Positions 10,260-24,698 of a stretch of 39,951 nt of DNA are shown here, one piece after another. Below the pieces are notes generated by a model. It had not been told where the DNA came from and searched no databases. It worked only from the letters and a program-made list of their open reading frames with translations. Both the position numbers and the translations under genes were made by a program. Numbering within the stretch: the first letter of the stretch is position 1; every line of letters starts with the position of its first letter. This stretch comes from an uncultured Acidiferrobacteraceae bacterium (GTDB lineage: Bacteria; Pseudomonadota; Gammaproteobacteria; Arenicellales; UBA868): positions 1-39,951 of the forward strand of contig CAJWEF010000003.1 in NCBI GenBank assembly GCA_913031305.1, written 5' to 3'.

Positions 10260-11462
10260 TCAGGGCCGGTCTGTGATGATGGAGGTGGCATCTGGCCGGT
10301 CTTCAAGTCCGGGCAGAAGTTCAGTGCCAAGGCCCGGACCAGAGGGTGGCAGAATCCAGCCATTCTCGATTGTGGGTATGACGGTGACCAACTCCTTATA
10401 CCAGCCGTCGTAGAACGCTCGGACTGATTCCTGGATCAAAGCGTTTGTTATATTCATCGACAGATGCACCGCAGCCATGAATGCCACCGGCCCGGTGCAG
10501 TCATGCGGCGCAACTGGGAGATGATAGGTTTCACCGAGGGACGCGATTTTCTTCGCTTCAGTCAGTCCACCGCACCAGACGATGTCTGGCATCAGGATGG
10601 CGGGCGCACCGCTTTCAATCAAGTCGCGGTAACCCGATCGCCCTGCAATTGTTTCGCTGGCGCAAACGGGCACCCGTGTGGCTTTAGCGAAACGCGCCAG
10701 CGCTGGAAGACTGTCCATTCGAACAGGATCTTCGTACCAGTAGGGGTTGAATGGTTCGAGTGCCTGGGCGATCTGCAGCGCGGCCGGAAGCCGCCAAAGG
10801 GAATGGAGCTCGACCATGATATCCATCTGCTCGCCTACTGCTTGACGGATCTTTCTAAAGGGATCGAGACATCGGTCCAGCGATTCGTTTGAAATGTAGT
10901 AGCCATCGCTGCTTTTGGCTGCGTGGTCGAATGGCCAGATTTTCATTCCAGTAATGCCTTGTTCGATCAAACTGAGGGCCAGTTCATCAGCCCTGTTAAT
11001 GAAAGCGTCAAGATCCTCGTAAGGCCCTTCAGGAGAACCGTCAAGGCCCCAGTCAGATGTGTCCCAGTCCGGGCGATTTCGTACATATCGATAACCGGCA
11101 CAAGTGTTGTAGGTGCGGACCTTGTCCCGAGCTAAGCCCCCGAGCAACTGAAACACAGGTTGCCCAACGGCTTTTCCGAAAAGATCCCAAAGGGCAACAT
11201 CGACTGCCGAACGTCCGCGGGTTTCTACACCAGTACCCGAAAAGCCCACGTATGGCATAAGATCCAGGGCAATTCGTTCGATCTGTAGCGGGTCTCGTCC
11301 AATTAATTTTGGAGCGGCGGTCTCGTGGATGAAGGCTTCCACCGCCTTGGCCCCGAAAAAGGTTTCGCCGAGGCCGCTGATGCCTTCATCGGTGTGGACT
11401 GTGACCCACAGAATGTTGGAAAATTCATCGAGCCGGAGCGTCTGAATGGCTGTGATCTTCAT
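10260..11462 (-). CDS. enolase superfamily (mandelate racemase/muconate lactonizing type) sugar-acid dehydratase
   Basis: A mandelate-racemase-group member of 400 residues from the start I prefer, ATG 11462 (MKITAIQTLRL). The open frame reaches back to 11588, but those 42 residues are not family-like and overlap the glutathione S-transferase gene. The capping domain covers residues 1-130. Barrel landmarks: Lys174 in GMKIWPFD, metal ligands Glu218 (VELHS), Glu244 (YEDP) and Glu270 (SETIAG), then MPDIVWCGGLTEAKKIA and His320 in APHDCTGP. Lys plus His acid/base chemistry with Mg2+ usually means dehydration or epimerisation of an acid sugar. It sits 43 bases downstream of the GST gene in a likely operon. 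The precise substrate is not assignable. Confidence 0.9.
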   Translation of the reverse strand: MKITAIQTLRLDEFSNILWVTVHTDEGISGLGETFFGAKAVEAFIHETAAPKLIGRDPLQIERIALDLMPYVGFSGTGVETRGRSAVDVALWDLFGKAVGQPVFQLLGGLARDKVRTYNTCAGYRYVRNRPDWDTSDWGLDGSPEGPYEDLDAFINRADELALSLIEQGITGMKIWPFDHAAKSSDGYYISNESLDRCLDPFRKIRQAVGEQMDIMVELHSLWRLPAALQIAQALEPFNPYWYEDPVRMDSLPALARFAKATRVPVCASETIAGRSGYRDLIESGAPAILMPDIVWCGGLTEAKKIASLGETYHLPVAPHDCTGPVAFMAAVHLSMNITNALIQESVRAFYDGWYKELVTVIPTIENGWILPPSGPGLGTELLPGLEDRPDATSIITDRP

Positions 11463-11505
11463 GGCGAAAATGAACGGGTTGGGTGATACGTCGAAACCTT
11501 GTGGA

Positions 11506-12147
11506 TCACTGTGGGGAACCTGGCAGCGGAATGTCGTTGACTCTCCTGGGCACATGATAGCCGCGCTGCACCGCAGGTCGCGAAGCAATCGACAGGTACC
11601 ATCGGGTCACATTCGGGTATTGAGTAATATCGATTGTTTGCCACTCGAATCGTGATATCCAGGGCCAAAGAGCAATATCTGCGATCGAATACTCGCCAAC
11701 CACAAATTCGCGGTCTTGCAGTTTCTTGTCGAGGACGCTGTAGAGTCGATGCCCTTCGGTCAAGTATCGATCTTGTGCATAGGGGCTTTTCCCCGGATTG
11801 AATTTCGTGAAGTGGTGAATTTGCCCCAACATCGGCCCGGGTCCAGCCATCTGCCACATCAACCATTCAATAGTTTCCCAGTAGCGCGATGTTTCCGCAG
11901 GAATCAATTGACCCGACTTTTTAGCCAGATAAAGCAGGATGGCGCCTGATTCCATCAGCGATTGTCCGCTTTCTGTGTCGACAATTGCTGGAATCTTGTT
12001 GTTGGGCGACAGCGCTATAAATGCGGGATTCCGTTGCTCACCTTGTGTGATATCCACCGGATACACTGTGTAATCCCACCCGAGCTCTTCCAGAGCGATA
12101 GATATTTTTCGCCCATTTGGGGTCGACCAGGTGTAGAGCTCAATCAT
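11506..12147 (-). CDS. glutathione S-transferase (YfcG/nu-class-like)
   Basis: A 213-residue glutathione transferase with an N-terminal thioredoxin-fold domain (MIELYTWSTPNGRKISIALEE, with the TPNGRK loop typical of the YfcG/YghU nu class). The glutathione-binding KIPAIVD and ESGAILLYLA segments follow, then an all-helical C-terminal domain containing EFVVGEYSIADIALWPWI. Nu-class proteins show glutathione-dependent disulfide reductase and sometimes C-O/C-S bond cleavage activity. Its position between an aldolase and an acid-sugar dehydratase, 34 bases from the aldolase, suggests a catabolic or detoxifying role in the same transcript; that part is inference. Confidence 0.92.
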   Translation of the reverse strand: MIELYTWSTPNGRKISIALEELGWDYTVYPVDITQGEQRNPAFIALSPNNKIPAIVDTESGQSLMESGAILLYLAKKSGQLIPAETSRYWETIEWLMWQMAGPGPMLGQIHHFTKFNPGKSPYAQDRYLTEGHRLYSVLDKKLQDREFVVGEYSIADIALWPWISRFEWQTIDITQYPNVTRWYLSIASRPAVQRGYHVPRRVNDIPLPGSPQ

Positions 12148-12181
12148 GCCAGAATCGGTTTTGCAAGTTGGGTGAGTCCGT

Positions 12182-12967
12182 TCAACCCAGCATTTCTCGA
12201 ACGGTTGCGGCTTGCCGGCGGGCGCTTTGCATAAGAAAAGTAATATCGTTGCCGGCGAGGATTAACCGCGCACCTATTGCAACATATTTCTTCATCAATT
12301 CCGGTTCGTAGACACCGCCCATGCCGGCGTATTTTCCGTGATCATTACAAGCACCAACGACGCTTTGATAAGCCGCTACGATATCCGGGTGTCCCAGTTC
12401 GCCGGGGATGCCCATCTCAAGCGAAAGATCGTTGGTGCCGATGAGTAGTGCGTCGATCCCGCTGATTGCGGCAATGGCCTGGGCGTTCTCGATTGCCCGG
12501 GGAGATTCCAGCATGACGACGATCAGGGTTTCACGATTGATCGTTTCGGTGGTGTCTTTGAGTGGGTGAGTCTCAAAACCAAGATGTGGCAGAGCACCGG
12601 TGATGGATCGATGCCCAATCGGGGGATAGCGGCAATTGGAGGCAATCTGCGCTGCGGTCTGCGGGTCGTCCACGTGGGGGACCACCACGCCCTGGGCTCC
12701 GCCATCCAGCACCCGCGTAGCGTGATAGGGTTCGGGTCCCGGTACCCGGACGATCGGAGCGATACCGGCATCCTGGGCTGCGACACAGATCTGCACCGCC
12801 GTGTCGATATCCATGGAATTGTGCTCCATGTCTATGAACAGCCAGTCAAAGCCGGCAGTACGCATGGCCTTGGCAGTATCGACGGTTCTTGCCTGGCGCA
12901 GGCCAACGCCGATCGCGAGCTGTCCGCGGCGAAGTTGCTCAAGGGCCTGATTATGAAGTTCTATCAT
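12182..12967 (-). CDS. HpcH/HpaI family class II aldolase (copy 1)
   Basis: A 261-residue HpcH/HpaI aldolase/citrate-lyase-like TIM barrel, a divalent-metal-dependent enzyme cleaving 2-oxo-4-hydroxy acids into pyruvate and an aldehyde. FDWLFIDMEHNSMD near residue 40, the catalytic Arg in PIVRVPG, GAQGVVVPHVDD, the metal Glu in VVMLESPRAIEN, and the metal Asp in IGTNDLSLEMG are all present. It follows the Ldh2 gene by 78 bases and precedes the GST gene by 34. It probably acts on the 2-keto-3-deoxy acid made by the downstream dehydratase, but family members are promiscuous. It is distinct from the second paralogue at 24695-25495. Confidence 0.93.
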   Translation of the reverse strand: MIELHNQALEQLRRGQLAIGVGLRQARTVDTAKAMRTAGFDWLFIDMEHNSMDIDTAVQICVAAQDAGIAPIVRVPGPEPYHATRVLDGGAQGVVVPHVDDPQTAAQIASNCRYPPIGHRSITGALPHLGFETHPLKDTTETINRETLIVVMLESPRAIENAQAIAAISGIDALLIGTNDLSLEMGIPGELGHPDIVAAYQSVVGACNDHGKYAGMGGVYEPELMKKYVAIGARLILAGNDITFLMQSARRQAATVREMLG

Positions 12968-13045
12968 GGGGCGATGATGTCTCGTCGTTGATAATTCGGG
13001 GTCGAAGATAGTCTAGTCGGGTTGATGCTACGAGAATAGCGCAGG

Positions 13046-14125
13046 TCAGGTCATACTCTGGGCGAGGGCACAAATCTTCTGACTGTCCAGTCCGACCGAT
13101 GCTGCTGTATCGACAACCAGTTGCCAGCTGTTCTCATCAATCGGAATACCCTCCGCTTGGCGTTGAGCCATGTTTTCCCGTTCAGGGTCCCCTGGTATCA
13201 GTACGGGCTCTGCAGGATTCATTGGCAAAGACGAGGTGACATGTGTCACGGTGGAATCGAGCTCGGACTTAAAAAACTCCGGTTCGACAAATCGGTTGGG
13301 GTCGAGGATGACCGAGAACATATTGTTCAGAATCGTATCGTTGTGGTGGTCAGTCTCGGGTCGGCAGGTGCCGCCGCCACTCAGAATTCCGGCGAGCAGC
13401 TCGTTAACCAGGGCAAGCCCATAGCCCTTATAGGTTCCAACCGGGCGCAGGGCGCCGGCAGGATCTGAAAACAAGGCCTCGGGGTCCGTTGTCGGGCGCC
13501 CGTGGCCATCCAGCAATACGCCCTCGGGCAGTGTTTCTCCTTTGTTCCTTGCGACTCGTACCTTTCCATGAGCCATAACGGTAGTGGCCATATCGAGCAC
13601 TAAAGGTCCTGCTGCACGAGCGTCTGGTATGGCGCAACAGTAAGGATTGGTTGAGTAGCGCGCATCAGAGCCACGGTAAGGCGCTACGATTCCTGTGTGC
13701 CCGATCGCGTTGACGTGGTGGATCGACACTAAGCCGGCTTGTGCGCAACGTTCTCCCCACGCGCCGATACGCCCCAGGTGAAAAGAATGCCGAATGGTGA
13801 GAGTGCACACGCCCAGCGATCGCGCACGTTCGATTCCGATATCCATAGCTTCTTGTCCGATCACTTGTCCATATCCTGACCGGCCATCAACAGTAATAAT
13901 AGGGCCCTCGTCAATGACAACTTCAGCATGTTGGTTAGGAATCAGCTCAGCGGTTTTCACGCATGCAACATAACGCGGAAGCATTCCGATGCCGTGACTA
14001 TCATGTCCCGCGAGATTAGCCTGGACCAGGTTATCAGCGACGATTTTGGGTTCATCGCCAGAGCTGCCAGCAGCCAACAGGATCTCAACGGCAACCGCTC
14101 GGAGGTTTTCCTGACTAATAAGCAT
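13046..14125 (-). CDS. Ldh2/malate-L-lactate dehydrogenase family oxidoreductase (copy 1)
   Basis: A 359-residue member of the Ldh2/ComC/YlbC-type NAD(P)-dependent 2-hydroxyacid dehydrogenases, a fold unrelated to classical LDH. The catalytic motif GHDSHG lies at residues 40-45. RSGYGQVIGQEAM, LGRIGAWGERCAQAGL, NPYCCAIPDA, GKVRVARNKGE, YKGYGLALVNELLAGILSGG and IPGDPERE are the successive family signatures. It would interconvert a 2-hydroxyacid (malate, lactate, ureidoglycolate, sulfolactate or sugar acid) and a 2-oxoacid. It lies between an SDR (47 bases upstream) and an aldolase in the minus-strand run. A clear paralogue is encoded at 21643-22674. Confidence 0.92.
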   Translation of the reverse strand: MLISQENLRAVAVEILLAAGSSGDEPKIVADNLVQANLAGHDSHGIGMLPRYVACVKTAELIPNQHAEVVIDEGPIITVDGRSGYGQVIGQEAMDIGIERARSLGVCTLTIRHSFHLGRIGAWGERCAQAGLVSIHHVNAIGHTGIVAPYRGSDARYSTNPYCCAIPDARAAGPLVLDMATTVMAHGKVRVARNKGETLPEGVLLDGHGRPTTDPEALFSDPAGALRPVGTYKGYGLALVNELLAGILSGGGTCRPETDHHNDTILNNMFSVILDPNRFVEPEFFKSELDSTVTHVTSSLPMNPAEPVLIPGDPERENMAQRQAEGIPIDENSWQLVVDTAASVGLDSQKICALAQSMT

Positions 14126-14172
14126 TGCTGTAGCGTGTGGTAAGAGATTGCGCGTATCGAAGTACTTTCATA

Positions 14173-14943
14173 TCACTTCGATACAAACCCGCCATCGATG
14201 GGTAGGGCAACCCCCGTGATGTATGACGCTTCATCTGAAAGCAAGAAGAGAGCAGTGTTCGCCACTTCTTCTGGTCTGCCGACACGCTGAAGAGGAATCA
14301 TCGATTTCATCATCGCAAGGTTGGCCTCGCCATCGGTTTCCTGATCGGGTCGAGCCATAAATATTTTCATCATTGGGGTATCGATAACGCCGGGACAGAC
14401 GCTGTTGACACGAATATTGTCTGCTGCGAGGCGCCCCGCGAGAGACGCCATGAAACCATTGACGCCCCACTTTGCCGCTGAGTAGAGCGGACTGAATGGG
14501 GATCCAATGAGGCCGGCAATAGAGGAGGTGAAAAGTATGCTGCCCCCGCCACGGGCACGCATCTGCGGGATCGCTGCCCCCGTGGTCATAAAGACCGATC
14601 GAATGTTCAGGTCCATTGTGATCGCGTAATCTTCGGGCTCGATGTCCTCGACTCGAGAAAATCCAGGGTGCCCCACGTGGTTCCAGAGTAAATCGATGCC
14701 GCCAAATTGCGCCACGGCCTGGGTGATAATGCGGGTGCACTCCTGATCATCGGATAAGTCTGCACACAGCCCGATCGCTTCATGCCCGGCCTGTGTGATC
14801 TCCTTAACAACCGAGTCGAGAGCTTTCTGGTCGATGTCCACGGCAACGATTTTTGCACCTTCTTCAGCAAATCGAATCACTCCGGCTTTGCCCATGCCTG
14901 ACGCTGCTGCGGTGACGAGGGCAATTTTGTTCTCAAGACGCAT
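14173..14943 (-). CDS. short-chain dehydrogenase/reductase (classical SDR, copy 1)
   Basis: A 256-residue classical SDR with Rossmann motif TAAASGMG at residues 11-18 and Asp in VAVDID after strand 2, which favours NAD+ over NADP+. NHVG replaces the usual NNAG. Catalytic Tyr154 and Lys158 are in YSAAK, the preceding FTSSIAG holds the Ser, and GVALPIDGGFVSK closes the C-terminus. The start has a good ribosome site (AAGGAGAGATAGATC-ATG). It begins the downstream part of the minus-strand run, 47 bases before the Ldh2 gene, and probably oxidises a hydroxyl group of the cluster's substrate. Confidence 0.93.
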   Translation of the reverse strand: MRLENKIALVTAAASGMGKAGVIRFAEEGAKIVAVDIDQKALDSVVKEITQAGHEAIGLCADLSDDQECTRIITQAVAQFGGIDLLWNHVGHPGFSRVEDIEPEDYAITMDLNIRSVFMTTGAAIPQMRARGGGSILFTSSIAGLIGSPFSPLYSAAKWGVNGFMASLAGRLAADNIRVNSVCPGVIDTPMMKIFMARPDQETDGEANLAMMKSMIPLQRVGRPEEVANTALFLLSDEASYITGVALPIDGGFVSK

Positions 14944-15103
14944 GATCTATCTCTCCTTGGTAAAATTTTGTGTTGCCATCGAACCTATTTGACCGTGAAT
15001 ACGGTATCTGTGCAAGCCGATCAGAAGAATTCACCCGCTGCACCTGCTGCGCGGCCAGGCGCTCGCATCAAAGCCATCAACCTGACTCGTTACGCACGCC
15101 GAT

Positions 15104-15424
15104 TCAAGGGAGATCGACCTCAAGCCCAAGGATGAGAAAGCTCCAGGATTTTCCGTGGCTGTCCAGATTAAGCGATTCATTCACCCCGCCTTCCAGGGCT
15201 TCGTCAAGCACCAGGTTGAGCCCATGTAGCTGGGGCAGAAGATAACGCTGGATCTGGCCTGTAAATAAAGCCCCAAAAGTCTGCTGCAGCCGCTCGGGCG
15301 TGATCTGGTCAACTAAAACGGGATAGTGTTTAGGGTCGTAAGCGAATACCGATACATTCGACCGGTTGCCCTTGTCGCCTGCCCGGGCATGAGCGATCTT
15401 CCTAAGTGTGGCCCGATGTGTCAT
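15104..15424 (-). CDS. AtuA-associated small domain protein (AtuA C-terminal-like)
   Basis: A 106-residue protein beginning MTHRATLRKIAHARAGDKGNRSN. The A-R-x-G-D-K-G-N-x-x-N motif is the hallmark of the small alpha/beta domain that in many genomes is fused to the C-terminus of AtuA-family (DUF1446) proteins. Here it is a separate gene: its ATG at 15424 overlaps the TGA of the large AtuA gene (ATGA), so translation is coupled. The longer open frame reaching 15562 is not family-like. The biochemical role is unknown; the two parts probably work together. Confidence 0.85.
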   Translation of the reverse strand: MTHRATLRKIAHARAGDKGNRSNVSVFAYDPKHYPVLVDQITPERLQQTFGALFTGQIQRYLLPQLHGLNLVLDEALEGGVNESLNLDSHGKSWSFLILGLEVDLP

Positions 15425-16764
15425 ACGTCGAACACGTCCAATATGGGCGAGATTCGACTGCGATCGACCAAGGTAGAGTAGGTCAAGATGCTGGGTCGAA
15501 TGTAGCCGCGGTATCCTCCCCCACCGGCTGGGCCGCAACAGAGCAGGGACTCGACCTCCCACAGCAGGGTTTCAGCTTCTTCGCGAGCCGACGTTCGCAT
15601 GGCGCAGCGCAAGCGAACATCCTCAGAATCCGTCATGGTTTGACCTGCAGTACCGTGCACAGATGACACGCCAATCAGATCAAGTCGTGGCGCGGTCTGC
15701 ACACCGTGGACCTGGCGCAGGCGCTCAGCTATGATCTCGCCCGCCAGGCTGGCCCGCCGCTGAGCCCCAGGGCCGGCATAGGAGATCTCGGCTTCTCCAA
15801 CGAAACCGCCAGCAAATGCAACGGTGACTTTAAGTTCCTGCGGTCGTTCACGGCCACGTGCCCCCGAGATTGAAACACGATCTTTGCCAGTTGAATCTAC
15901 ACGGGCCCAGGAAAAGTCAGCAGTGACGTCTGGCGTAAGATATTGCGCAGGGTCATGGATCTCGTAGAGCAATTGCTCCTTCACAGTGCGTGGGTCGACA
16001 CAGCCTCCAGTCCCTGGCAGTTTGGTGATGACCGCGGTGCCATTATGCTGGACCTCGGCAATAGGAAACCCGACAAACGCAATATCTTCAACGTTTTTGT
16101 AGCCGGGATCAGCAAAGTAGCCACCAGTGACCTGAGCGGCGCACTCCATCACATGGCCTATCATCGTGCCTGCCCCTGCGCGTGCCCAGTCGTCATATTC
16201 CCACTGAAAAAAGTGCTGGAGGGGGGCGAGAAAAAGAGATGGGTCGGCTACGCGTCCTGTGATCACAACGTTGGCCTTTTGTTTCAGAGCCGCCACAATT
16301 CCCTCGGTACCGAGATAGGCATTGGCACCAATCATGCGGTGCTCGAAGTCTTGAAGAGCGCAGTTGGGCTCGATCAGGTGGGTATCTTTACCCAGTAGAT
16401 GTGTGGCGTCATCTCCTGTAACAACGGCCACCCGCATTCCCGGCAAGCCGAGTTCCCGCGCTATGTCGACTACCGCTTTGCCTGCAGCCAGAGGGTTTGC
16501 AGCGCCCATGTTTGTGATGAGGCAGGTGTTGCCTGCGCGGCACAAAGGCAGGACAGCCCGCATACGGGTTTCCAGAAGCCTGTTGTAACCCAGAGCGGGG
16601 TCAGATCGTTTCTCGAGAAGTCCCGAGGCAAGAGTTCGCTCACCGAGACACTCAAATACGATGGCATCGAGGTCGCCCCTTCTAGCCAGGTCGACAGCGG
16701 GGTCCAGGCGGTCGGCAGAAAATCCCGCACCTGTGCCAATCCGGAAACTCTCTGCTTTCATCAC
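15421..16764 (-). CDS. acyclic terpene utilization AtuA family protein (DUF1446)
   Basis: A 447-residue DUF1446/AtuA-family protein. Signatures: GTGAGFSADRLDPAVDLARRGDLDAIVFECLGERT at the N-terminus, LITNMGAANPLAAG near residue 90, VVTGDDA, then TEGIVAALKQKANVVITGRVADPSLFLAPL, HVMECAAQVTGGYFADPGYK and GGCVDPRTVKEQLLYEI. AtuA is needed for citronellol/geraniol use in Pseudomonas, but the family also occurs in many carboxylic-acid operons and its reaction is not established. The frame opens with GTG 16764 followed at once by ATG 16761 (MKAESFRIG), either of which could be the start. The C-terminal domain is encoded by the overlapping next gene. Confidence 0.9.
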   Translation of the reverse strand: MMKAESFRIGTGAGFSADRLDPAVDLARRGDLDAIVFECLGERTLASGLLEKRSDPALGYNRLLETRMRAVLPLCRAGNTCLITNMGAANPLAAGKAVVDIARELGLPGMRVAVVTGDDATHLLGKDTHLIEPNCALQDFEHRMIGANAYLGTEGIVAALKQKANVVITGRVADPSLFLAPLQHFFQWEYDDWARAGAGTMIGHVMECAAQVTGGYFADPGYKNVEDIAFVGFPIAEVQHNGTAVITKLPGTGGCVDPRTVKEQLLYEIHDPAQYLTPDVTADFSWARVDSTGKDRVSISGARGRERPQELKVTVAFAGGFVGEAEISYAGPGAQRRASLAGEIIAERLRQVHGVQTAPRLDLIGVSSVHGTAGQTMTDSEDVRLRCAMRTSAREEAETLLWEVESLLCCGPAGGGGYRGYIRPSILTYSTLVDRSRISPILDVFDV

Positions 16765-17012
16765 ATCATGCTAGCGACTGGACAGCGCCCGGAGGGGCTG
16801 CTCCCAGCAGAAAAACCTGGTCGAAGTCGTAATCGAAGCTTGTGGTCATACCGTTGATGCGGGCGATGGCTGACATTCGCATTCTGGTGAGCAATGGTCA
16901 GGCAAGATAAGGCGACTGCCTAACGATCGTCTAACTCTAGTTGTGGGCTCCGACTCGCTAAGGACATCTTGCTTCCACCGATGCTGTTATCTAGTTCGCC
17001 GTAGCAGCAAAA

Positions 17013-17900
17013 TCAAATCAGATGTAATTCTTCAAGTGCTGACCGAATCGCCGCTTGCTGGGATGGCTGGGGTACCGTCATCGGTTTTCGCGGCAGACCT
17101 GCGGGTATTTGCTGAAGAGTTTGAGCATATTTAGTGCAGGCTGGCAGGTTATCACCATTGATCGCGTTCCACAGCCGAAGCAATCGTTGATGTAGATCAA
17201 GAGCCTTATCGGATTCTCGCGCAACTGTGGCTTGCCAAAGCGCAACGCTGGGCCCGGGGGCCGCTGCCAGGATTGCTGCAATTGCACCATGTGCGCCAAG
17301 CGCGTAACAAGAATAAAGTAGCGCATCAACGGCGCTGAAAATGAGATCACCCGGGTTTGCCATGATCATCAGGTCAGCAAAAAGTTTCATGTCGCCTGCG
17401 CTTTGTTTAACGCCGATTACGCCCGGCACCTCTTGCATCAACCGGCAAAGAAGTTCCGGCTCGATGTAGCTCCAGGGGACCACGTTATAAATGATGACGG
17501 GCATTTGGGTTTCTTGTGTGACAGATCGAAAATGTTCAATCGTGGCCTCTTCAGTGGGTTTGAAAAGATAATGAACCGGTGTGACCTGAAGTGCTACCAC
17601 GCCAGAGTCTTTGACCAGCCGACCGCGTCTGATTGCTTCACGGGTCGAGTCGGTAATGATGCCGGCGATCACAGGCACACGCCCATCTGCAGCAGCTACA
17701 GTGGTTTCTACCAACTGCAGGTGTTCGTTTGGGCCCAGGGTGTGGCCTTCACCGGTACTGCCCCCCACCGCAATGCCATGTACGCCATTGTTGATCAGCC
17801 AGTCAATTTGCAGTGGAACCGCAGCATAATCGATCTCGCCGTCTGCATTGAAAGGGGTGGTGGCAGGAACAATCACGCCGGTTAGGTTGGGTTTGATCAT
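17013..17900 (-). CDS. dihydrodipicolinate synthase (DapA) family lyase/aldolase
   Basis: A 295-residue (beta/alpha)8 class I aldolase-family enzyme. GVIVPATTPFNADGEIDY at the N-terminus, GGSTGEGHTL near residues 46-55, the Tyr in IIYNVVPW, and the Schiff-base Lys in GVKQSAGD are conserved. The YNVVPW and C-terminal details differ from true DapA and fit catabolic members, such as 2-keto-3-deoxy acid aldolases/dehydratases and 4-hydroxy-2-oxoglutarate aldolase. It lies 56 bases after the PhyH gene on the same strand and about 250 bases before the AtuA gene. I infer a role in cleaving or dehydrating a keto-deoxy acid, not lysine synthesis. Confidence 0.9.
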   Translation of the reverse strand: MIKPNLTGVIVPATTPFNADGEIDYAAVPLQIDWLINNGVHGIAVGGSTGEGHTLGPNEHLQLVETTVAAADGRVPVIAGIITDSTREAIRRGRLVKDSGVVALQVTPVHYLFKPTEEATIEHFRSVTQETQMPVIIYNVVPWSYIEPELLCRLMQEVPGVIGVKQSAGDMKLFADLMIMANPGDLIFSAVDALLYSCYALGAHGAIAAILAAAPGPSVALWQATVARESDKALDLHQRLLRLWNAINGDNLPACTKYAQTLQQIPAGLPRKPMTVPQPSQQAAIRSALEELHLI

Positions 17901-17956
17901 TGTCTGAAATACCTGTTCACAAACTGGAAAAGAAAACGATGGTTCACAATAGTTGT

Positions 17957-18718
17957 TTATTGCCGAATACGAAAGTCGTTTCGCCCGGAAATATCGGTGC
18001 CACGCATCAGAAACAGCGTCCGTTGGGTATGATCGAGCAGTTTTTTCTCCTTTTCCTGGCGCGCAGCTAGATCACGGTCGAAAACGGAAGTTGTTGGCAT
18101 ATATCGCAAAGTCATCCCACGCCTCGGATTCGGTGATTTATTTTCTTCTGAACCGTGGACCAGGTAGATATCATGCAAAGAGATTTGTCCTGCTTCAAGG
18201 GTGAGATCGACGGCTTCGTCTTTGGAGAATTCTGTTGCGATCAATTCCTGGTTTAAAGTCAGGTCGGGGCTCGAGTTGATCTGATGTTCTCGCAACATCT
18301 GTTGCTTATGAGAGTCTGGGATCAGTCTGAGACACCCATTGTCCAGCGTTGCCTTATCGATTGCCATCCACACGGTGCAAGTGGCCAGTGGGCGCAGGGG
18401 CCAATACTCGCCGTCCTGATGCCAGGGGGTTGCCTGCCCGTCACAGGCCGGTTTTGCAAAAAAGCTGGAATTCCAAAGTGAAAAATCTGATCCCAGGATC
18501 TGTTCAACCATATCCAGAATTTCCGGGATACGAGCATAAGTCAGAAAGCGCAGGTCGTGAGCCAGGAGGTTAGGGCAATAATTGCGAAACTGGGGGTTTC
18601 GCGATACCAAGCGGTCATGGCCGCTACGAATATCAGCCAGAACCTTATCGGGCAGGCGATAGTCCGGTACGATGTAACCGTTTTCGTGGTAGTGCAAAAC
18701 TTGATCGCTAGTCAACAT
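17957..18718 (-). CDS. phytanoyl-CoA dioxygenase (PhyH) family Fe(II)/2-oxoglutarate oxygenase
   Basis: A 253-residue PhyH-like double-stranded beta-helix oxygenase. The iron ligands are His100 and Asp102 in PWHQDGEYW and the distal His188 in YLVHGSEENKS; Arg200 in NPRRGMTLRY is the likely 2-oxoglutarate anchor. The sequence SPNPRRGMTLRYMP is characteristic of the group that includes ectoine and small-molecule hydroxylases. Hydroxylation of a small acid or demethylation-type chemistry is possible. It sits between the UxaA-family gene (61 bases upstream) and the DapA-family gene, probably one transcript. No strong Shine-Dalgarno precedes ATG 18718. Substrate unknown. Confidence 0.92.
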   Translation of the reverse strand: MLTSDQVLHYHENGYIVPDYRLPDKVLADIRSGHDRLVSRNPQFRNYCPNLLAHDLRFLTYARIPEILDMVEQILGSDFSLWNSSFFAKPACDGQATPWHQDGEYWPLRPLATCTVWMAIDKATLDNGCLRLIPDSHKQQMLREHQINSSPDLTLNQELIATEFSKDEAVDLTLEAGQISLHDIYLVHGSEENKSPNPRRGMTLRYMPTTSVFDRDLAARQEKEKKLLDHTQRTLFLMRGTDISGRNDFRIRQ

Positions 18719-18779
18719 AGAACTTTGAACTCACGCTGATCGGCCAGGTGGAAAAGGCAGGCTTACACATCCCAATGCA

Positions 18780-21470
18780 TTAAAGGGAAAGACCAACGGT
18801 TCCCCTGGTTACCTGAAAATTGCTGTACCCGCGTTGGTGCAACTTCGGTGAGTATTGCTGTGTCAGCATATTTTCGATTTGAGTCATCAAGAAGTCGCTG
18901 GGTGAATCACCAGAGTCTTGAGTCAGAACAAAATCCAGATCGTCTTGGAACTTTTCGCTGGCCGCATTTTGATCGCTGAACTGCAACACAGGAACCAAGG
19001 GATGGGATGTAACGGGTAGACCGCTGGTATACATTAAAATGATCTCTACTCCAGTTCCCCCAAGCCCGGTCAAAATCTCCGTCAGGCTGGTTGTCGGAGT
19101 CGCCATAATGAAAAACCCACTGCCAGTTGGGGGGGTGCCGTAGTCGAGATTGGCCGACCAACTTTGAGCTTCCCCCAGCAGGTGTTCAGTGAATGTAGTC
19201 GAGTCAGCGATACTGGCGCTCTGGGGCACTATAACCTGTGCTCCTGACGTCACCAGGTCTCTTGCCAGCTGTGCCAGCGCGTGAGCCGTAACCTTGTCCA
19301 CGGGTCCTTGACTCATAAGGCCAATCTTAAGATCGGTAATAGCGCCGGTTCGGCGCGCCACAGGCGAATCAAGCGCGACCCGGAACTGGCCGGCAACTTT
19401 TTTAGCCACGCGATCAAGGCCGCCATCAAGTTGCACGCTGGCCCAGTCAAAGCGTGACGGATCTAATCCCTTTTGCAATAAATCATGCCGGATAGCATCG
19501 TTGTGGGTTCGTTCACACCCATGCTCCAGCAGTACCGCGTGTGTGACGAACCGGTGTTGCAGATGCCCGCTGACGATATCGAGGAATAGATCCTCCGCGT
19601 TGGCGCTGCCGCAGCCCTCTGTATGAACCAGGGCAATATAACGGTTAGCCCGGGCTAATACTGGCTCGTTTGCACGCGCTGCGTTTAATTGATTGGCGAT
19701 CAGTTGGGCGACCTGTCCTGAACATAGACTGGTTGGCATGATCAACCCGACTTTGTCACTGGTAATCCCATAGTCCGATACGTAACCCTGAAACGACAGA
19801 TGCTTTCGGTTACCGGCCCGCACCGAAACCGGACCACCGCCGACAGGGGTCGGTTTGGTGTGAGGTTGCCTCAAAGGAGAAGACTGCTGCCAGTTGCGCC
19901 ACAGCTGCACCTGCGAGTGGCCAGCAAGTTCTCCCTTGCTCTGCTCTCCCGAGGCGACTCGAATGGTGAGTGCAAAGGTTTCCTGACTAAGACTTTCCAT
20001 GTCCTCTCCATCGTTATAACGACCAGCATTGATATCCATTTCATTAGATAGCATCTCGAAACGGCCGGTGGTCGTTACAAATTTCAGGGTGGGCACGAAG
20101 GGGAAATTAGTGATTGATCCGTTGCCAGTAATAAACAGGATCGCGTTGCATCCTGAAGCCACTTGTCCGGCAATACTCTCGAGATCGTTGCCTGGACTAT
20201 CCATAAAATGGTAGCCGGGTTCAGTCATCGGGGCGCCATAGTCAATGACAGCATCCAGTCGAACTTCAGGGTCTTTTTTTCTGGCGGCCCCAATAGATTT
20301 CAAGGCAATGTTGTACAGGCCCCGGAAGTTATTACCACCGCTTGGATTACCCTCGGCACTGGCGCCATGGTTGGCTGCGTACTGTTTAAATTTCTCTATT
20401 TTCCGTAGAAACGATTTTGCAGTTCCAAGGTCCTTTACGTTAAGCAGCACATAAGATTCTGCACCGATCAGTTCATCAGTTTCGGCAAGATTGGCTTTAC
20501 CGCCATGGCGGATCACCTCTTTCGCTATGCAGCCGGCCAGCGGATTACCTGAAATTCCAGAAAATGCATCAGAGCCCCCACACTGCAGCGCCAGAGCGAT
20601 ATTCGCTATAGGCTCCGGTGTTCGGACTTGTTCACCGACAATGGGTATCCATTGGTCAACTTTCTGACTTGCGTCGATAAGTGCCTGTTCGCCAGATTGG
20701 CTGATTCGGAAGAATTCATGAGGTATGTGACTCAATGGATAATGGTTATCAAGCATGAACTGTTCAAGATCAGTCGCGGCGAAGGTTCCGTTCCCATAAT
20801 CCACGGCCAGCACTGCAGCCACATTCGGGTGCACCATGAACCCAGCCAGCGTCCGCATCACCAGTGACCAATTATTCGGGCGAGTGCTACCGTCCCCTTC
20901 TGTATGAGTTACGGCAACAACCCCATCGATATTCTTCCCAAGTTTCCGATTTGAATATGCTGACTCAACTTGACGAGCAAACGCAGCAGATTGCACGGTT
21001 AACGCAAGAATCACAATGAAGTTACGGGTGCCAACACCTCGTTGCCCTGGACGCCGATATCCAAGAAACGTCCCTACCTCACTGGTGGGCGCGACCTGCG
21101 TTCCTGGCGAAAATGTGGCTTCGTTGATCTGATGTTCCAGCATGACATCGAGAAAGTTAGCCTCGCACGGCAGCTCGAAATCGATGTCGCGTTGGCCCAA
21201 TGCAGTGAGGATTTTCTGGTTGCATACATACTCGCCAGGATCAAGAGATCGGATCGCGGTTCCAAAAGGTAATCCCCACGATAGCAGCGGTTCATCAGCT
21301 TTTATTGGGGTCAGAACAAATCGATGTCCCTCCAGTATGGTGTGATGAGTGGTGATTTGTCCGTGTTGGGTTTCGATGATGGCGCCATGGTTTATCCGTC
21401 GCGTGGCAATGGCTACGTTGTCGCCACGGTCGGCTAACCGGGCAATCTCGTTAAATTGAAACTTGATCAT
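18780..21470 (-). CDS. double-length UxaA-family dehydratase: SAF domain plus two UxaA regions
   Basis: An 896-residue protein, nearly twice the roughly 500 residues of altronate/galactarate dehydratases. Residues 1-100 are a UxaA-type SAF domain (GDNVAIATRRI, ILEGHRFVL, LDPGEYVCNQK). Residues about 136-525 form a UxaA region with RPGQRGVGTRN, CGGSDAFSGISGNP (Cys297), FMDSPGNDLESIAGQVASGCN and EMDINAGRYNDGE. Residues about 560-896 form a second, divergent copy with GYVSDYGITSDKVGL, SLCSG (Cys583), HTEGCGS (Cys620) and LLEHGCERTHND (Cys652). Copy 1 has Ser161, Asp193 and Asn227 where cysteines are expected, and copy 2 has a Ser-Gln-Gly stretch near 720 in place of CGGSD. One uninterrupted frame covers both. 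Family chemistry is metal-dependent dehydration of a hexarate or hexonate, or the related sulfo-lyase reaction of SuyAB. Substrate unknown. Confidence 0.88.
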   Translation of the reverse strand: MIKFQFNEIARLADRGDNVAIATRRINHGAIIETQHGQITTHHTILEGHRFVLTPIKADEPLLSWGLPFGTAIRSLDPGEYVCNQKILTALGQRDIDFELPCEANFLDVMLEHQINEATFSPGTQVAPTSEVGTFLGYRRPGQRGVGTRNFIVILALTVQSAAFARQVESAYSNRKLGKNIDGVVAVTHTEGDGSTRPNNWSLVMRTLAGFMVHPNVAAVLAVDYGNGTFAATDLEQFMLDNHYPLSHIPHEFFRISQSGEQALIDASQKVDQWIPIVGEQVRTPEPIANIALALQCGGSDAFSGISGNPLAGCIAKEVIRHGGKANLAETDELIGAESYVLLNVKDLGTAKSFLRKIEKFKQYAANHGASAEGNPSGGNNFRGLYNIALKSIGAARKKDPEVRLDAVIDYGAPMTEPGYHFMDSPGNDLESIAGQVASGCNAILFITGNGSITNFPFVPTLKFVTTTGRFEMLSNEMDINAGRYNDGEDMESLSQETFALTIRVASGEQSKGELAGHSQVQLWRNWQQSSPLRQPHTKPTPVGGGPVSVRAGNRKHLSFQGYVSDYGITSDKVGLIMPTSLCSGQVAQLIANQLNAARANEPVLARANRYIALVHTEGCGSANAEDLFLDIVSGHLQHRFVTHAVLLEHGCERTHNDAIRHDLLQKGLDPSRFDWASVQLDGGLDRVAKKVAGQFRVALDSPVARRTGAITDLKIGLMSQGPVDKVTAHALAQLARDLVTSGAQVIVPQSASIADSTTFTEHLLGEAQSWSANLDYGTPPTGSGFFIMATPTTSLTEILTGLGGTGVEIILMYTSGLPVTSHPLVPVLQFSDQNAASEKFQDDLDFVLTQDSGDSPSDFLMTQIENMLTQQYSPKLHQRGYSNFQVTRGTVGLSL

Positions 21471-21642
21471 AGACTCAGGGTATTGTCAGACGATGTCTTG
21501 GTCAAATTGCTGTGAGATTGCCAGGATACGCCAAAGTGGATGGAATCCTGGTTGTACCGGTTTGTGTTCTCTACAGATAAGGCGCGTTGGGTTTGTACGC
21601 CAAATAATGAATCATCCCGGGGTGGTCCAATCTGCAGTCATG

Positions 21643-22674
21643 CTAAAGATGAATATCCAGATTCTTTGCAGTGGAGACGATTTGTTGCCAGGTGACATCG
21701 TCAAGCGGTATCCCGTTTTTGCGTCGATCATTTTCGGTCGCCTGCTCCGGATCACCTGGCAACTGGACAGGATGATTGGGGTTGGCTGGGGCCGATTGGC
21801 TGACCCAGTCCGCGAATCGACTTATTTCTGAATCTACACGCTCTTGGTCAGCAAAGACGCCAGGATCCATCAGGATAGATAACATGCCGTTTGTTAATGC
21901 GGTAACTCCCGGGCGGGCACAGCCACCACCGGCAATCGCTCCGGCCAGCAAATCAGTCATGATCGCAAGACCAGAGCCTTTGTGCCCTCCCATTGGCATC
22001 AGTGTCCCCGGTGGTTCGGCATATAGATCTGCCGGATTGCAGGTCGGTTTTCCGGTCGCATCAAGCAACGAGCCCGCAGGAAGTTCCACACCTTTGTTGC
22101 GGGCCACTCTGACCTTACCCTCGGCAAGCGCAGAGGTCGCAGCATCAAAAATAATCGGACTCCCGTTATTAACAGGCATACCGATTGAAATAGGGTTGGT
22201 CGCATAACGCGCATTGATCCCGCCAAAAGGAGCGACCATCATCCCCGCGCCCGAAGTATTAACAAAATGCAGCGATACTTGCCCTGCCATCGCTGCTTTC
22301 TCGGCCCAATCTCCAATTCGACCCAGATGGCCGACATTTCCAACGCCGACCATAGCAAGCCCAGAGGTGGCGGCTTTTTGGATGCCTTCGCCGATTACCT
22401 GGTTGCCGATAGTCTGGCCAAACCCCTTGTTGCCTTCATATAGCGAGATCGTATCGTTTTCAAAAACAACAGTGGCAATCTGATTGGGCACTACATCGCC
22501 CTGACGCCAGGAGTCGATATACTGCGGGATTCGAATAACACCGTGGGAATCGTGGCCTGTCAAATTCGCACGTACCAGAAGTCGGCTGATATTTTCCGCT
22601 TCGGTGTCGTCACAACCAATCGCGCTGAAGATTTCTTTCGAAAATTCTTCCAGTTCCGTGACTATTATTTTCAT
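21643..22674 (-). CDS. Ldh2/malate-L-lactate dehydrogenase family oxidoreductase (copy 2)
   Basis: A 343-residue paralogue of the gene at 13046-14125, sharing GHDSHG at residues 40-45, GHLGRIGDWAEKAAMAGQ, INARYATNPI, EGKVRVARNKG, HKGSGLAIMTDLLAGAIAGGG and LPGDPEQ. It oxidises a 2-hydroxyacid to a 2-oxoacid or the reverse with NAD(P). It has a good ribosome site (CAGGAGCATT-ATG) and starts the minus-strand run, 172 bases upstream of the UxaA-family gene. The RraA gene diverges from it across a repeat-rich control region, so the two are probably co-regulated. Specificity is unknown; it is divergent enough from copy 1 to suggest a different substrate. Confidence 0.92.
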   Translation of the reverse strand: MKIIVTELEEFSKEIFSAIGCDDTEAENISRLLVRANLTGHDSHGVIRIPQYIDSWRQGDVVPNQIATVVFENDTISLYEGNKGFGQTIGNQVIGEGIQKAATSGLAMVGVGNVGHLGRIGDWAEKAAMAGQVSLHFVNTSGAGMMVAPFGGINARYATNPISIGMPVNNGSPIIFDAATSALAEGKVRVARNKGVELPAGSLLDATGKPTCNPADLYAEPPGTLMPMGGHKGSGLAIMTDLLAGAIAGGGCARPGVTALTNGMLSILMDPGVFADQERVDSEISRFADWVSQSAPANPNHPVQLPGDPEQATENDRRKNGIPLDDVTWQQIVSTAKNLDIHL

Positions 22675-22832
22675 AATGCTCCTGTGGGAGAATGTTTAGG
22701 GCGTTGACGGTGAATGGATCAGTGCCGCCAAGTGAAAGTGACCAAGTGAAAGTGAATAGCGATGTACGTACATAAACTATTTTGCTGTACAGAGCAAGAA
22801 GATTAACCCAAACCGGAAATGGAGAAACCCTG
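22675..22832. promoter_or_regulatory. divergent control region with tandem repeat and palindromes
   Basis: Between the divergent Ldh2 and RraA genes lie an exact head-to-tail 14-base repeat (CCAAGTGAAAGTGA at 22728-22741 and 22742-22755), a perfect 12-base palindrome (ATGTACGTACAT, 22762-22773), and an inverted repeat TTGCT-GTACAG-AGCAA (22782-22797). The palindrome resembles GntR/FadR-type operators in form. No matching regulator gene is in the window. Confidence 0.6.
22728..22755. repeat. exact tandem duplication of a 14-base unit
   Basis: CCAAGTGAAAGTGA occurs twice with no spacer. The unit itself contains two GTGA/AGTGA steps. It could be a recent slippage duplication or a pair of binding sites. 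Confidence 0.85.
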
Positions 22833-23519
22833 ATGATTGGAAAGCCAGTTAGCCTGATCGTGCGCAAGCATTTCGAAAGACCAGACATTGAGAAACTGAA
22901 AATGTTTCAGGGCGTTGCAACGGGTTTTGTCGTTGACGCCCAAAATGGGACTGGGGCGCTGGATCGAAAAATAAAGCCAGTTGATCCTGAAATGAAGTTT
23001 GCAGGTCCTGCTATGACAGCAGATGCAGAACCTCGCGACTATCTTCCTGTACAGCCTGCAATTGCATTATCTAAGCCCGGAGATGTCCTGGTGATTGCAA
23101 CGGGTGGGTATGAAGGTGCCGCGGTCATCGGTGACAATGTCGCAATGATGGCAAAGAATCAGGGCCTTGCGGCAATCGTAACCGATGGCCTGGTACGCGA
23201 TATCGAAGGGGTTCTAGCCACGGGTATTCCCGTATTCTGCTGTGGGGTATCCCCGAACTCTCCCTATGCGCGTGGCCCTGGCCGAGTAGGCCTGCCGATC
23301 GCAATATCACGATCGGTAATACAGCCTGGAGATGTCATTATTGGTGACCGAGACGGGGTAGTCGTTATCTCTCGAGATGAGATCGACGCAGTGATTGAGA
23401 GCCTCAAGAGCGTTAGGGAAAAAGAGATCGAACTTGAATCTAAGGTTAAAGCAGGACTCTGTTATGCGCCTTGGGTGGACGATTACCTGCAATCTACTCA
23501 GACACGATACCTAGACTGA
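22833..23519 (+). CDS. RraA/HMG aldolase family protein
   Basis: A 228-residue RraA-like protein of the family that includes 4-hydroxy-4-methyl-2-oxoglutarate/4-carboxy-4-hydroxy-2-oxoadipate aldolases and oxaloacetate decarboxylases. Signatures: GDVLVIATGGYEGAAVIGDN near residues 83-102, IVTDGLVRDIEGV with Arg122-Asp123 (substrate Arg and metal Asp), PVFCCGVSPNSPYARGPG, and PGDVIIGDRDGVVVI. The start at 22833 is set by GGAG in AAATGGAGAAACCCTG-ATG; the frame opens earlier but without family sequence. Length is closer to catabolic aldolases than to the 160-residue RNase E regulator. It diverges from the Ldh2/UxaA run and probably cleaves a product of it. Confidence 0.9.
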   Translation: MIGKPVSLIVRKHFERPDIEKLKMFQGVATGFVVDAQNGTGALDRKIKPVDPEMKFAGPAMTADAEPRDYLPVQPAIALSKPGDVLVIATGGYEGAAVIGDNVAMMAKNQGLAAIVTDGLVRDIEGVLATGIPVFCCGVSPNSPYARGPGRVGLPIAISRSVIQPGDVIIGDRDGVVVISRDEIDAVIESLKSVREKEIELESKVKAGLCYAPWVDDYLQSTQTRYLD

Positions 23520-23550
23520 ACCTTTGCAGTCGAAATTTCCGAAGGCAAAT

Positions 23551-23656
23551 AATGGCCAGTGAGTCATCGACCTTAAGCTTTGGCATAGCCAGATTATTGG
23601 GTAAACAAAAGCACGCTCAATTGGTTGACCCCACGAGCACGTCTATGAGAAGTTGA
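23551..23656 (+). CDS. possible short ORF after the RraA gene
   Basis: A 34-codon frame (MASESSTLSFGIARLLGK onward) starts 31 bases after the RraA stop with a GAAGG ribosome-like site and overlaps the 3' end of the convergent dehydrogenase gene. I do not recognise it. It may be the truncated front of a lost gene or simply chance. Confidence 0.2.
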
Positions 23657-24698
23657 TTCGGCAGCGTTCGAGTTTGGTCTGGAAACTTGGGTTGTTAACC
23701 ACGCTGGGATCGACCAGAACGGACGGTGGCGCCCCGCGCTTGATCGAAAATACGTGCTCGAGATCCTGAGCACCGATGCCGGCGAAACACTGGTCGGTCC
23801 AGCACAGGGCGTGCGGCGACAATATGACATTATCCAGCGTCAGTAAGGGATCGTCAGCCTCGGGGGGTTCTGGCTCGAAGACATCCAGTCCGGCACCGGC
23901 AATGATCCCGGTTTTCAGTGCCTCGACTAAAGCGTGCTGATCGACGACCGGCCCGCGTGAGGTGTTGATCAGAAATGCTGTTGATTTCATCAGCTTGAGT
24001 CTGGATGCATTGACGAGGTGTCGAGTGTCGGCAGACAGCGGAACATTCACCGACAAGAAGTCACTTTCACGAAACACCGTCTCAAGATCAGTGAGTTCGA
24101 CGTTGACGGCCCGGGCGCTGCGCGGATCAATGTAGGGGTCATGGGCGATAAAATGCATATCAAGCGGTGCGCAGACGCGAGCCAGCTCTGCACCGATGTT
24201 GCCAAGACCAATCGATCCCAGTGTTCTGCCGACCAGGCCTGTGCCCATATGATTCGAACGCAGGGCAAAACTTTCCGGGCCTCCACGGACCAGCGCGTCT
24301 TTGGCCATGAGTTTCCCGGCCAGGGCCAGGATGTAGGTCAGGATGGCTGTGGCGACCGGTCGCCTGACCCCGTCGGGCGTGATACCCACGGCAATACCCG
24401 CTGCCGTGCAGGCCGGCACATCGACGGTGTCATAACCGACGCCAAACCGCGTAACCAGGGCCAGTCGGCCGCTGCGGGGAATGCTGTCGGCGTCGAATTT
24501 CTCGAGCAACAGCACCAGAGCATCGAAGTCTTCAAGGGATTCCCCGGTCATGCGACCATCCACACCGGGCACGTAGGCAAATTCGATATCCGGGTCGCCA
24601 GCGAGCGGTGCCAGATCAAACATTGGAAATACCGGTTCACCATCGCCGGTCTGGAACGTCCCTGAAAGGGCCACACGGAACGCCTTGGGCTTGGTCAT
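23643..24698 (-). CDS. D-2-hydroxyacid dehydrogenase (phosphoglycerate dehydrogenase-like)
   Basis: A 351-residue NAD-dependent D-2-hydroxyacid dehydrogenase. The Rossmann motif is SIGLGNIGAELARV, followed by HDPYIDP. The catalytic Arg is in INTSRGPVVD, the Glu in GAGLDVFEPEPPEADDPL, and the His in LSPHALCWTDQC (the usual HxG/A-W-T region). ATPDGVRRPVA-like sequence precedes the coenzyme domain. It reduces 2-oxoacids or oxidises D-2-hydroxyacids. Its ATG overlaps the stop codon of the upstream HpcH/HpaI aldolase (ATGA at 24695-24698), indicating a coupled two-gene operon: the aldolase could make or use the 2-oxoacid handled here. Confidence 0.93.
   Translation of the reverse strand: MTKPKAFRVALSGTFQTGDGEPVFPMFDLAPLAGDPDIEFAYVPGVDGRMTGESLEDFDALVLLLEKFDADSIPRSGRLALVTRFGVGYDTVDVPACTAAGIAVGITPDGVRRPVATAILTYILALAGKLMAKDALVRGGPESFALRSNHMGTGLVGRTLGSIGLGNIGAELARVCAPLDMHFIAHDPYIDPRSARAVNVELTDLETVFRESDFLSVNVPLSADTRHLVNASRLKLMKSTAFLINTSRGPVVDQHALVEALKTGIIAGAGLDVFEPEPPEADDPLLTLDNVILSPHALCWTDQCFAGIGAQDLEHVFSIKRGAPPSVLVDPSVVNNPSFQTKLERCRINFS

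Follow-up and report, generated by a model that had tools for sequence, protein, structure and literature searches.

The UxaA/GarD/SuyAB family covers enzymes of uronate, galactarate and sulfolactate breakdown. Cys134, Cys173, Cys208 and Cys276 of D-arabinonate dehydratase are the only cysteines conserved across the UxaA/GarD superfamily, sulfolactate sulfo-lyase excepted, and they have been proposed as ligands of a rubredoxin-type iron (Watanabe and co-workers, PMC6336799). The protein described here shares the order SAF-like domain, second domain and C-terminal domain with UxaA (D-altronate dehydratase) and D-arabinonate dehydratase C785_RS13685 (COG2721), and the four cysteines and the CGGSD motif of these enzymes also exist somewhere in its chain. 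In contrast to them, it is a tandem with two second domains and two C-terminal domains but one SAF-like domain, its cysteines are divided between the two copies, the HVHxHN motif of the SAF domain is replaced, and family-invariant residues are changed, for example the equivalents of R344 and D317. E. coli GarD (galactarate dehydratase, PDB 6U7L) is the best solved-structure match (residues 45–511, E 4e-32); however, GarD is a single-copy protein, and the tandem scores 158.7 bits against the equivalog cut-off of 730.85 for TIGR03248 (NCBIfam). SuyB, the large subunit of (R)-sulfolactate sulfo-lyase, resembles the first copy of the tandem in that SuyB-like proteins keep the fourth cysteine only, but in SuyB there is no second copy to supply the other three, and the replacements at the lost positions are fixed in SuyB and not in the tandem. 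The absence of the first three cysteines that marks SuyB does not extend to the tandem as a whole, the second copy of which keeps all three invariantly. Double-length proteins of this kind are rare, and some are already annotated: two plasmid-borne relatives (see below) stand in public records as 'UxaA family hydrolase'. No description of a tandem UxaA or of the cysteine split was found in the searchable literature.

Gene and domain layout

The tandem gene was found in the window, a 39,951-nucleotide stretch from an uncultured Acidiferrobacteraceae bacterium. It occupies 18780–21470 on the minus strand (stop codon 18780–18782), where the 896-residue frame of the initial annotation was confirmed as complete. 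Pfam finds two stretches each of GD_AH_C (275 bits, cut-off 26.8) and GD_AH_second (118.5 bits, cut-off 27.3), which places the protein in the UxaA/GarD superfamily, taken here as COG2721 and PF04295 plus PF20629. The domain order is SAF, S1, C1, linker, S2, C2, with all positions on the minus strand. The SAF-like N-terminal domain (residues 1–100; 21171–21470) is followed by S1, the second domain of copy 1 (residues 137–270; 20661–21062; PF04295 and alignment with single-copy proteins), and by C1, the fully conserved C-terminal domain of copy 1 (residues 289–527; 19890–20606; PF20629, 255.8 bits), in which the CGGSDAFSG motif (residues 297–305; 20556–20582) holds the fourth conserved cysteine, C297. 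After an inter-copy linker with 20% mean identity (residues 528–570; 19761–19889), in which no second SAF domain was found, come S2, the second domain of copy 2 (residues 571–690; 19401–19760), which keeps three cysteines and Q680, and C2, a degenerate C-terminal domain (residues 706–896; 18783–19355; a weak PF20629 match, aligned with hhalign). Copy 2 is homologous to single-copy UxaA along its length (hhalign 99.3%, E 1e-20). C2 is without CGGSD and about 45 residues, a stretch that has invariant N, G and K positions in single-copy proteins.

The SAF region aligns with the SAF domains of 3k3s and 6u7l, at a Pfam score of 17.9 bits that lies under the 21-bit cut-off. It carries Y81-x-C83-N84 where the HVHxHN motif would stand. 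The initial annotation had read GEYVCNQK as replacing the usual His-rich SAF motif; the replacement stands, and as G-x-Y-x-C-N it is invariant in all five diverged tandems compared below, but the His-rich motif is not universal in the family, being absent in the alignment from E. coli GarD and from the single-copy proteins L062 and L039 as well.

L062 and L039 (~527 aa) are the closest single-copy matches to S2 (48–54 bits versus ~25 or less for the remaining single-copy proteins) and stand near both tandem copies in the tree, with long branches; they differ from the tandem in being single copy with all four cysteines. Together with L064 they form an uncharacterised single-copy UxaA group (G536:C221, G064:C189 and G528:C120 for L062, L039 and L064, respectively) with TEGCGC and GCEQTN motifs, a SAF domain without HVHxHN and a conserved QRQFQ-W-TAGKL tail.

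Distribution and gene neighbourhood

The search for other proteins of about 900 residues with the same split, suggested in the initial annotation, found them in four relatives, 39–77% identical to the window protein. Tandems of the same genus are 96–97% identical; a full-length tandem of a second genus is 77% identical, one from another family of the order (L043) 56%, one on a Rubrobacter indicoceani plasmid 48% and one on a Pantoea soli plasmid 39%. The relatives of the window are metagenome-assembled genomes named Acidiferrobacteraceae or Arenicellales, of a gammaproteobacterial lineage. Within the order, 6 of the 109 genomes searched carry a tandem, the window genome included, and one of these tandems is cut by a contig end. 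Samples of 369–398 genomes of the class and phylum, with long frames checked, yielded no further tandem; long open frames in four genomes (G673, G573, G664 and G010) were rejected as single-copy proteins in long stop-free stretches. Split two-gene versions, with S1-C1 and S2-C2 as separate proteins, were not found with copy 2 as the query, and viral contigs searched with three further family alignments returned two single-copy contigs or nothing. Five diverged tandems were compared in what follows (window, L007/L012, L043, L103 and L104). The branching orders of the two copies in the tree are compatible across them, which is consistent with copies that were fused once, long ago, and have descended together since.

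The tandem gene of the window is preceded by an Ldh_2-family dehydrogenase (21643–22674) and followed by a PhyH-family dioxygenase (17957–18718) and a DHDPS-family aldolase or dehydratase (17013–17900), all on the minus strand. This order (Ldh_2, tandem, PhyH, DHDPS family) is common to two genera, and HpcH/HpaI aldolases, SDRs and an AtuA-like protein surround the locus in both; an HpaI-type aldolase and an enolase-superfamily dehydratase lie near the tandem in the window. The order is different in the third genus (L043), where a class II aldolase-family protein, an MFS transporter, an SDR and an Ldh_2 dehydrogenase are close by. In Pantoea soli the order is GntR regulator, tandem, FAH-family protein and 2-keto-3-deoxygluconate permease, and in Rubrobacter an Nramp metal transporter precedes the tandem and a GntR-type regulator follows it. 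These neighbourhoods suit sugar acid dehydration to a 2-keto-3-deoxy acid. The initial annotation had offered a sugar-acid dehydratase or a related C-S or C-O lyase; a C-O dehydratase is preferred here, and a C-S lyase is less likely because SuyB-like proteins are without the three cysteines of S2 and the neighbourhoods look sugar-acid catabolic.

More broadly, positions 10260–24698 of the window form a dense catabolic cluster with two Ldh_2 dehydrogenases, two HpcH/HpaI aldolases, the DHDPS-family lyase, an enolase-superfamily dehydratase, an AtuA-like protein, an RraA-like aldolase and the PhyH dioxygenase. The last matches chlorinating enzymes and ectoine hydroxylase weakly, and it consistently adjoins the tandem in this lineage.

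Division of conserved residues between the copies

Among 58 aligned single-copy proteins, the fourth cysteine (that of CGGSD) is present in 58/58 and the first three in 41–42/58, with the exceptions mainly in the SuyB-like clade. In the window protein, the first three positions are lost in copy 1, where they are Gln160, Asp193 and Asn227, and kept in copy 2 as Cys583 (TSLC; codon 19722–19724, minus strand), Cys620 (HTEGC; 19611–19613, minus strand) and Cys652 (EHGCE; 19515–19517, minus strand); at the fourth position, copy 1 has Cys297 and copy 2 has Ser720. Alignment with the single-copy proteins bears out what had been read from the sequence for Asp193, Asn227, the three kept cysteines and the loss of CGGSD from copy 2; only the residue at the TVNC cysteine of copy 1, given as Ser161, had to be corrected to Gln160, neither being a cysteine. 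No single pair of second and C-terminal domains holds all four cysteines: three are found only in copy 2 and one only in copy 1 in 5/5 diverged tandems, including those on Actinomycetota and Enterobacterales plasmids, and all four are present only across the whole chain.

The kept cysteine positions never vary across the five tandems. In contrast, the lost positions carry Q/K/D/R/Q, D/D/G/G/G, N/D/Q/F/D and S/T/G/A/S; residues that differ so among tandems indicate that no substitute function is conserved, and the lost sites look unconstrained. The division extends beyond the cysteines. Among the 56 positions that are nearly invariant in the family, copy 1 alone keeps 25 (nearly all in C1) and copy 2 alone keeps 6 (the three cysteines, Q680 and two others), with 6 kept in both copies, 7 in neither and 12 mixed; evolution has in this way assigned ~30 positions to one half or the other. 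Catalytic positions are retained in complementary fashion across diverged tandems.

The degree of conservation follows the same division. Mean pairwise identity among the five tandems is 68.9 for C1, 57.6 for S2, 44.4 for S1 and 36.5 for C2, and C1 exceeds C2, as S2 exceeds S1, in 10/10 tandem pairs. Where the C-domain identity of single-copy proteins is near 65–72, that of their second domain averages 48–53; by this measure the constraint on S2 equals or exceeds that in a working enzyme, and the constraint on S1 falls below it. Purifying selection acts in all domains, with dN/dS well below 1: 0.036–0.039 for C1, 0.037–0.053 for S2, 0.10–0.12 for S1 and 0.13–0.15 for C2. The split is beyond chance, as five diverged tandems preserve both it and the frame and no domain has a dN/dS anywhere near 1. 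A live copy beside a dead one would keep S1-C1 or S2-C2; the retention of C1 and S2 instead argues for a divided site, not decay, and the pairing of a dead with a live copy was rejected, the four cysteines being complete in neither half.

Probable active site of the tandem and competing explanations

The initial annotation had pictured a duplicated dimer that was fused and then divided its active site, an idea now well supported by the split common to five tandems, by the domain-matched selection and by the 25 versus 6 positions. We consider it probable that the tandem is a dehydratase of the UxaA/GarD family in the form of a fused pseudo-dimer, and that S2 and C1 together make up its one functional, composite active site. 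S2 would give C583, C620 and C652 to an iron centre, both the metal and the physical assembly of the S2-C1 site being predicted, and C1 would give CGGSD (C297) and the remaining conserved substrate pocket, so that the substrate would lie mainly on C1. S1 and C2 would then be degenerate leftovers of a second, mirror-image site, retained as scaffold. Against this reading stands N216 of the HPN motif, which S1 retains and S2 does not, so that S1 is not fully dispensable. Most likely the enzyme dehydrates a polyhydroxy acid, an aldonate or aldarate, to a 2-keto-3-deoxy acid. R344, replaced by N in 4/5 tandems, is one of the seven family-invariant positions kept by neither half, which suggests that the tandem may act on a substrate different from that of any known member. 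AlphaFold2 on the tandem with only 7 sequences (P0001, L005–L008, L126 and L128) gave a mean pLDDT of 51.5 and a pTM of 0.42, too poor for geometry.

If one site is assembled from S2 and C1, we infer that in ordinary UxaA/GarD homodimers each site would lie between two subunits, one giving its second domain and the other its C-domain. The second domain of GarD reportedly forms its dimer interface, which would fit a site shared across subunits and serves here as a lead only. A fuller proposal, which we put forward tentatively and as slightly less than an even chance, is that the sites of the family cross the subunit interface, that the fused lineage kept one and dismantled the other, and that its substrate is one on which no known member works. 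The tandem can be regarded as a natural separation-of-function experiment on which domains of the two copies have to cooperate, and it predicts subunit-shared active sites across the whole family; if this is true, it would be a natural single-site dimer, usable to tell apart, in UxaA, GarD and SuyAB, the residues that bind metal and those that handle substrate. Mammalian adenylyl cyclase, in which the C1 and C2 domains of that enzyme form a pseudo-symmetric fused pair whose halves share one active site, the second site having degenerated, provides an analogy and not a homology, since fold and chemistry are unrelated.

It is unlikely that catalysis is the work of copy 1 alone, in the manner of SuyB-like proteins and with no need of the three cysteines, and that copy 2 is a regulatory, stabilising or separate metal-binding module. 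The lost-cysteine state is by itself not unique, as single-copy proteins of the SuyB-like clade likewise have just the cysteine of the CGGSD type (L, R or a gap at the other positions), and both the rank of C1 as the most conserved domain and the retention of N216 in S1 would be expected of such an enzyme. However, these substitutes are fixed in the SuyB-like proteins and drifting in S1, and a passive module would need neither the invariance of the S2 cysteines, HTEGC and EHGCE, nor a dN/dS as low as that of C1.

A different division of chemical roles, in which S2 binds an iron or Fe-S centre through three cysteines with an open coordination place (aconitase-type), C297 is catalytic and C1 binds the substrate, appears improbable to us. 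A mononuclear rubredoxin-type iron with four cysteines is favoured by PMC6336799, against which can be set the joint segregation of three cysteines in S2 and of the fourth with the substrate domain, the retention of the fourth alone in SuyB-like proteins, and the EPR of D-arabinonate dehydratase, where a high-spin ferric signal was accompanied by a g~2 signal near that of [3Fe-4S]. That the tandem is a pseudoenzyme, dead or repurposed, for example as a sugar-acid sensor, is very improbable: the complete residue set of the family is found in neither half and a GntR-type regulator is among the neighbours in each plasmid locus, but the chain as a whole has the four cysteines and at least 37 of the 56 family-invariant positions one or two times each, the presumed catalytic domains are under the strongest selection, and the operons contain catabolic enzymes. 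A sequencing or assembly artefact or a decaying fusion, for which rarity alone could speak, has a practically negligible chance given the low dN/dS in every domain and the recurrence of the same 875–897-aa frame across independently made assemblies and on two complete plasmids, conserved full-length relatives that rule out an assembly artefact.

The genome of the window contains other UxaA-family loci. One (L002/L036; G000:C20:4247-5383) encodes a SuyB-like protein of 390 aa, which has KCGESD but none of the other three cysteines and may be a C-S lyase or a lyase of another kind, and is followed by a TRAP-type substrate-binding protein; its relatives (L021–L028, L034 and L035) are widespread in the genus. 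At the third UxaA-family locus (L001/L033/L037; G000:C119:555-2023), a small separate SAF gene adjoins that of a 406-aa large subunit with the full set of four cysteines; the arrangement is heteromeric, like that of SuyAB.
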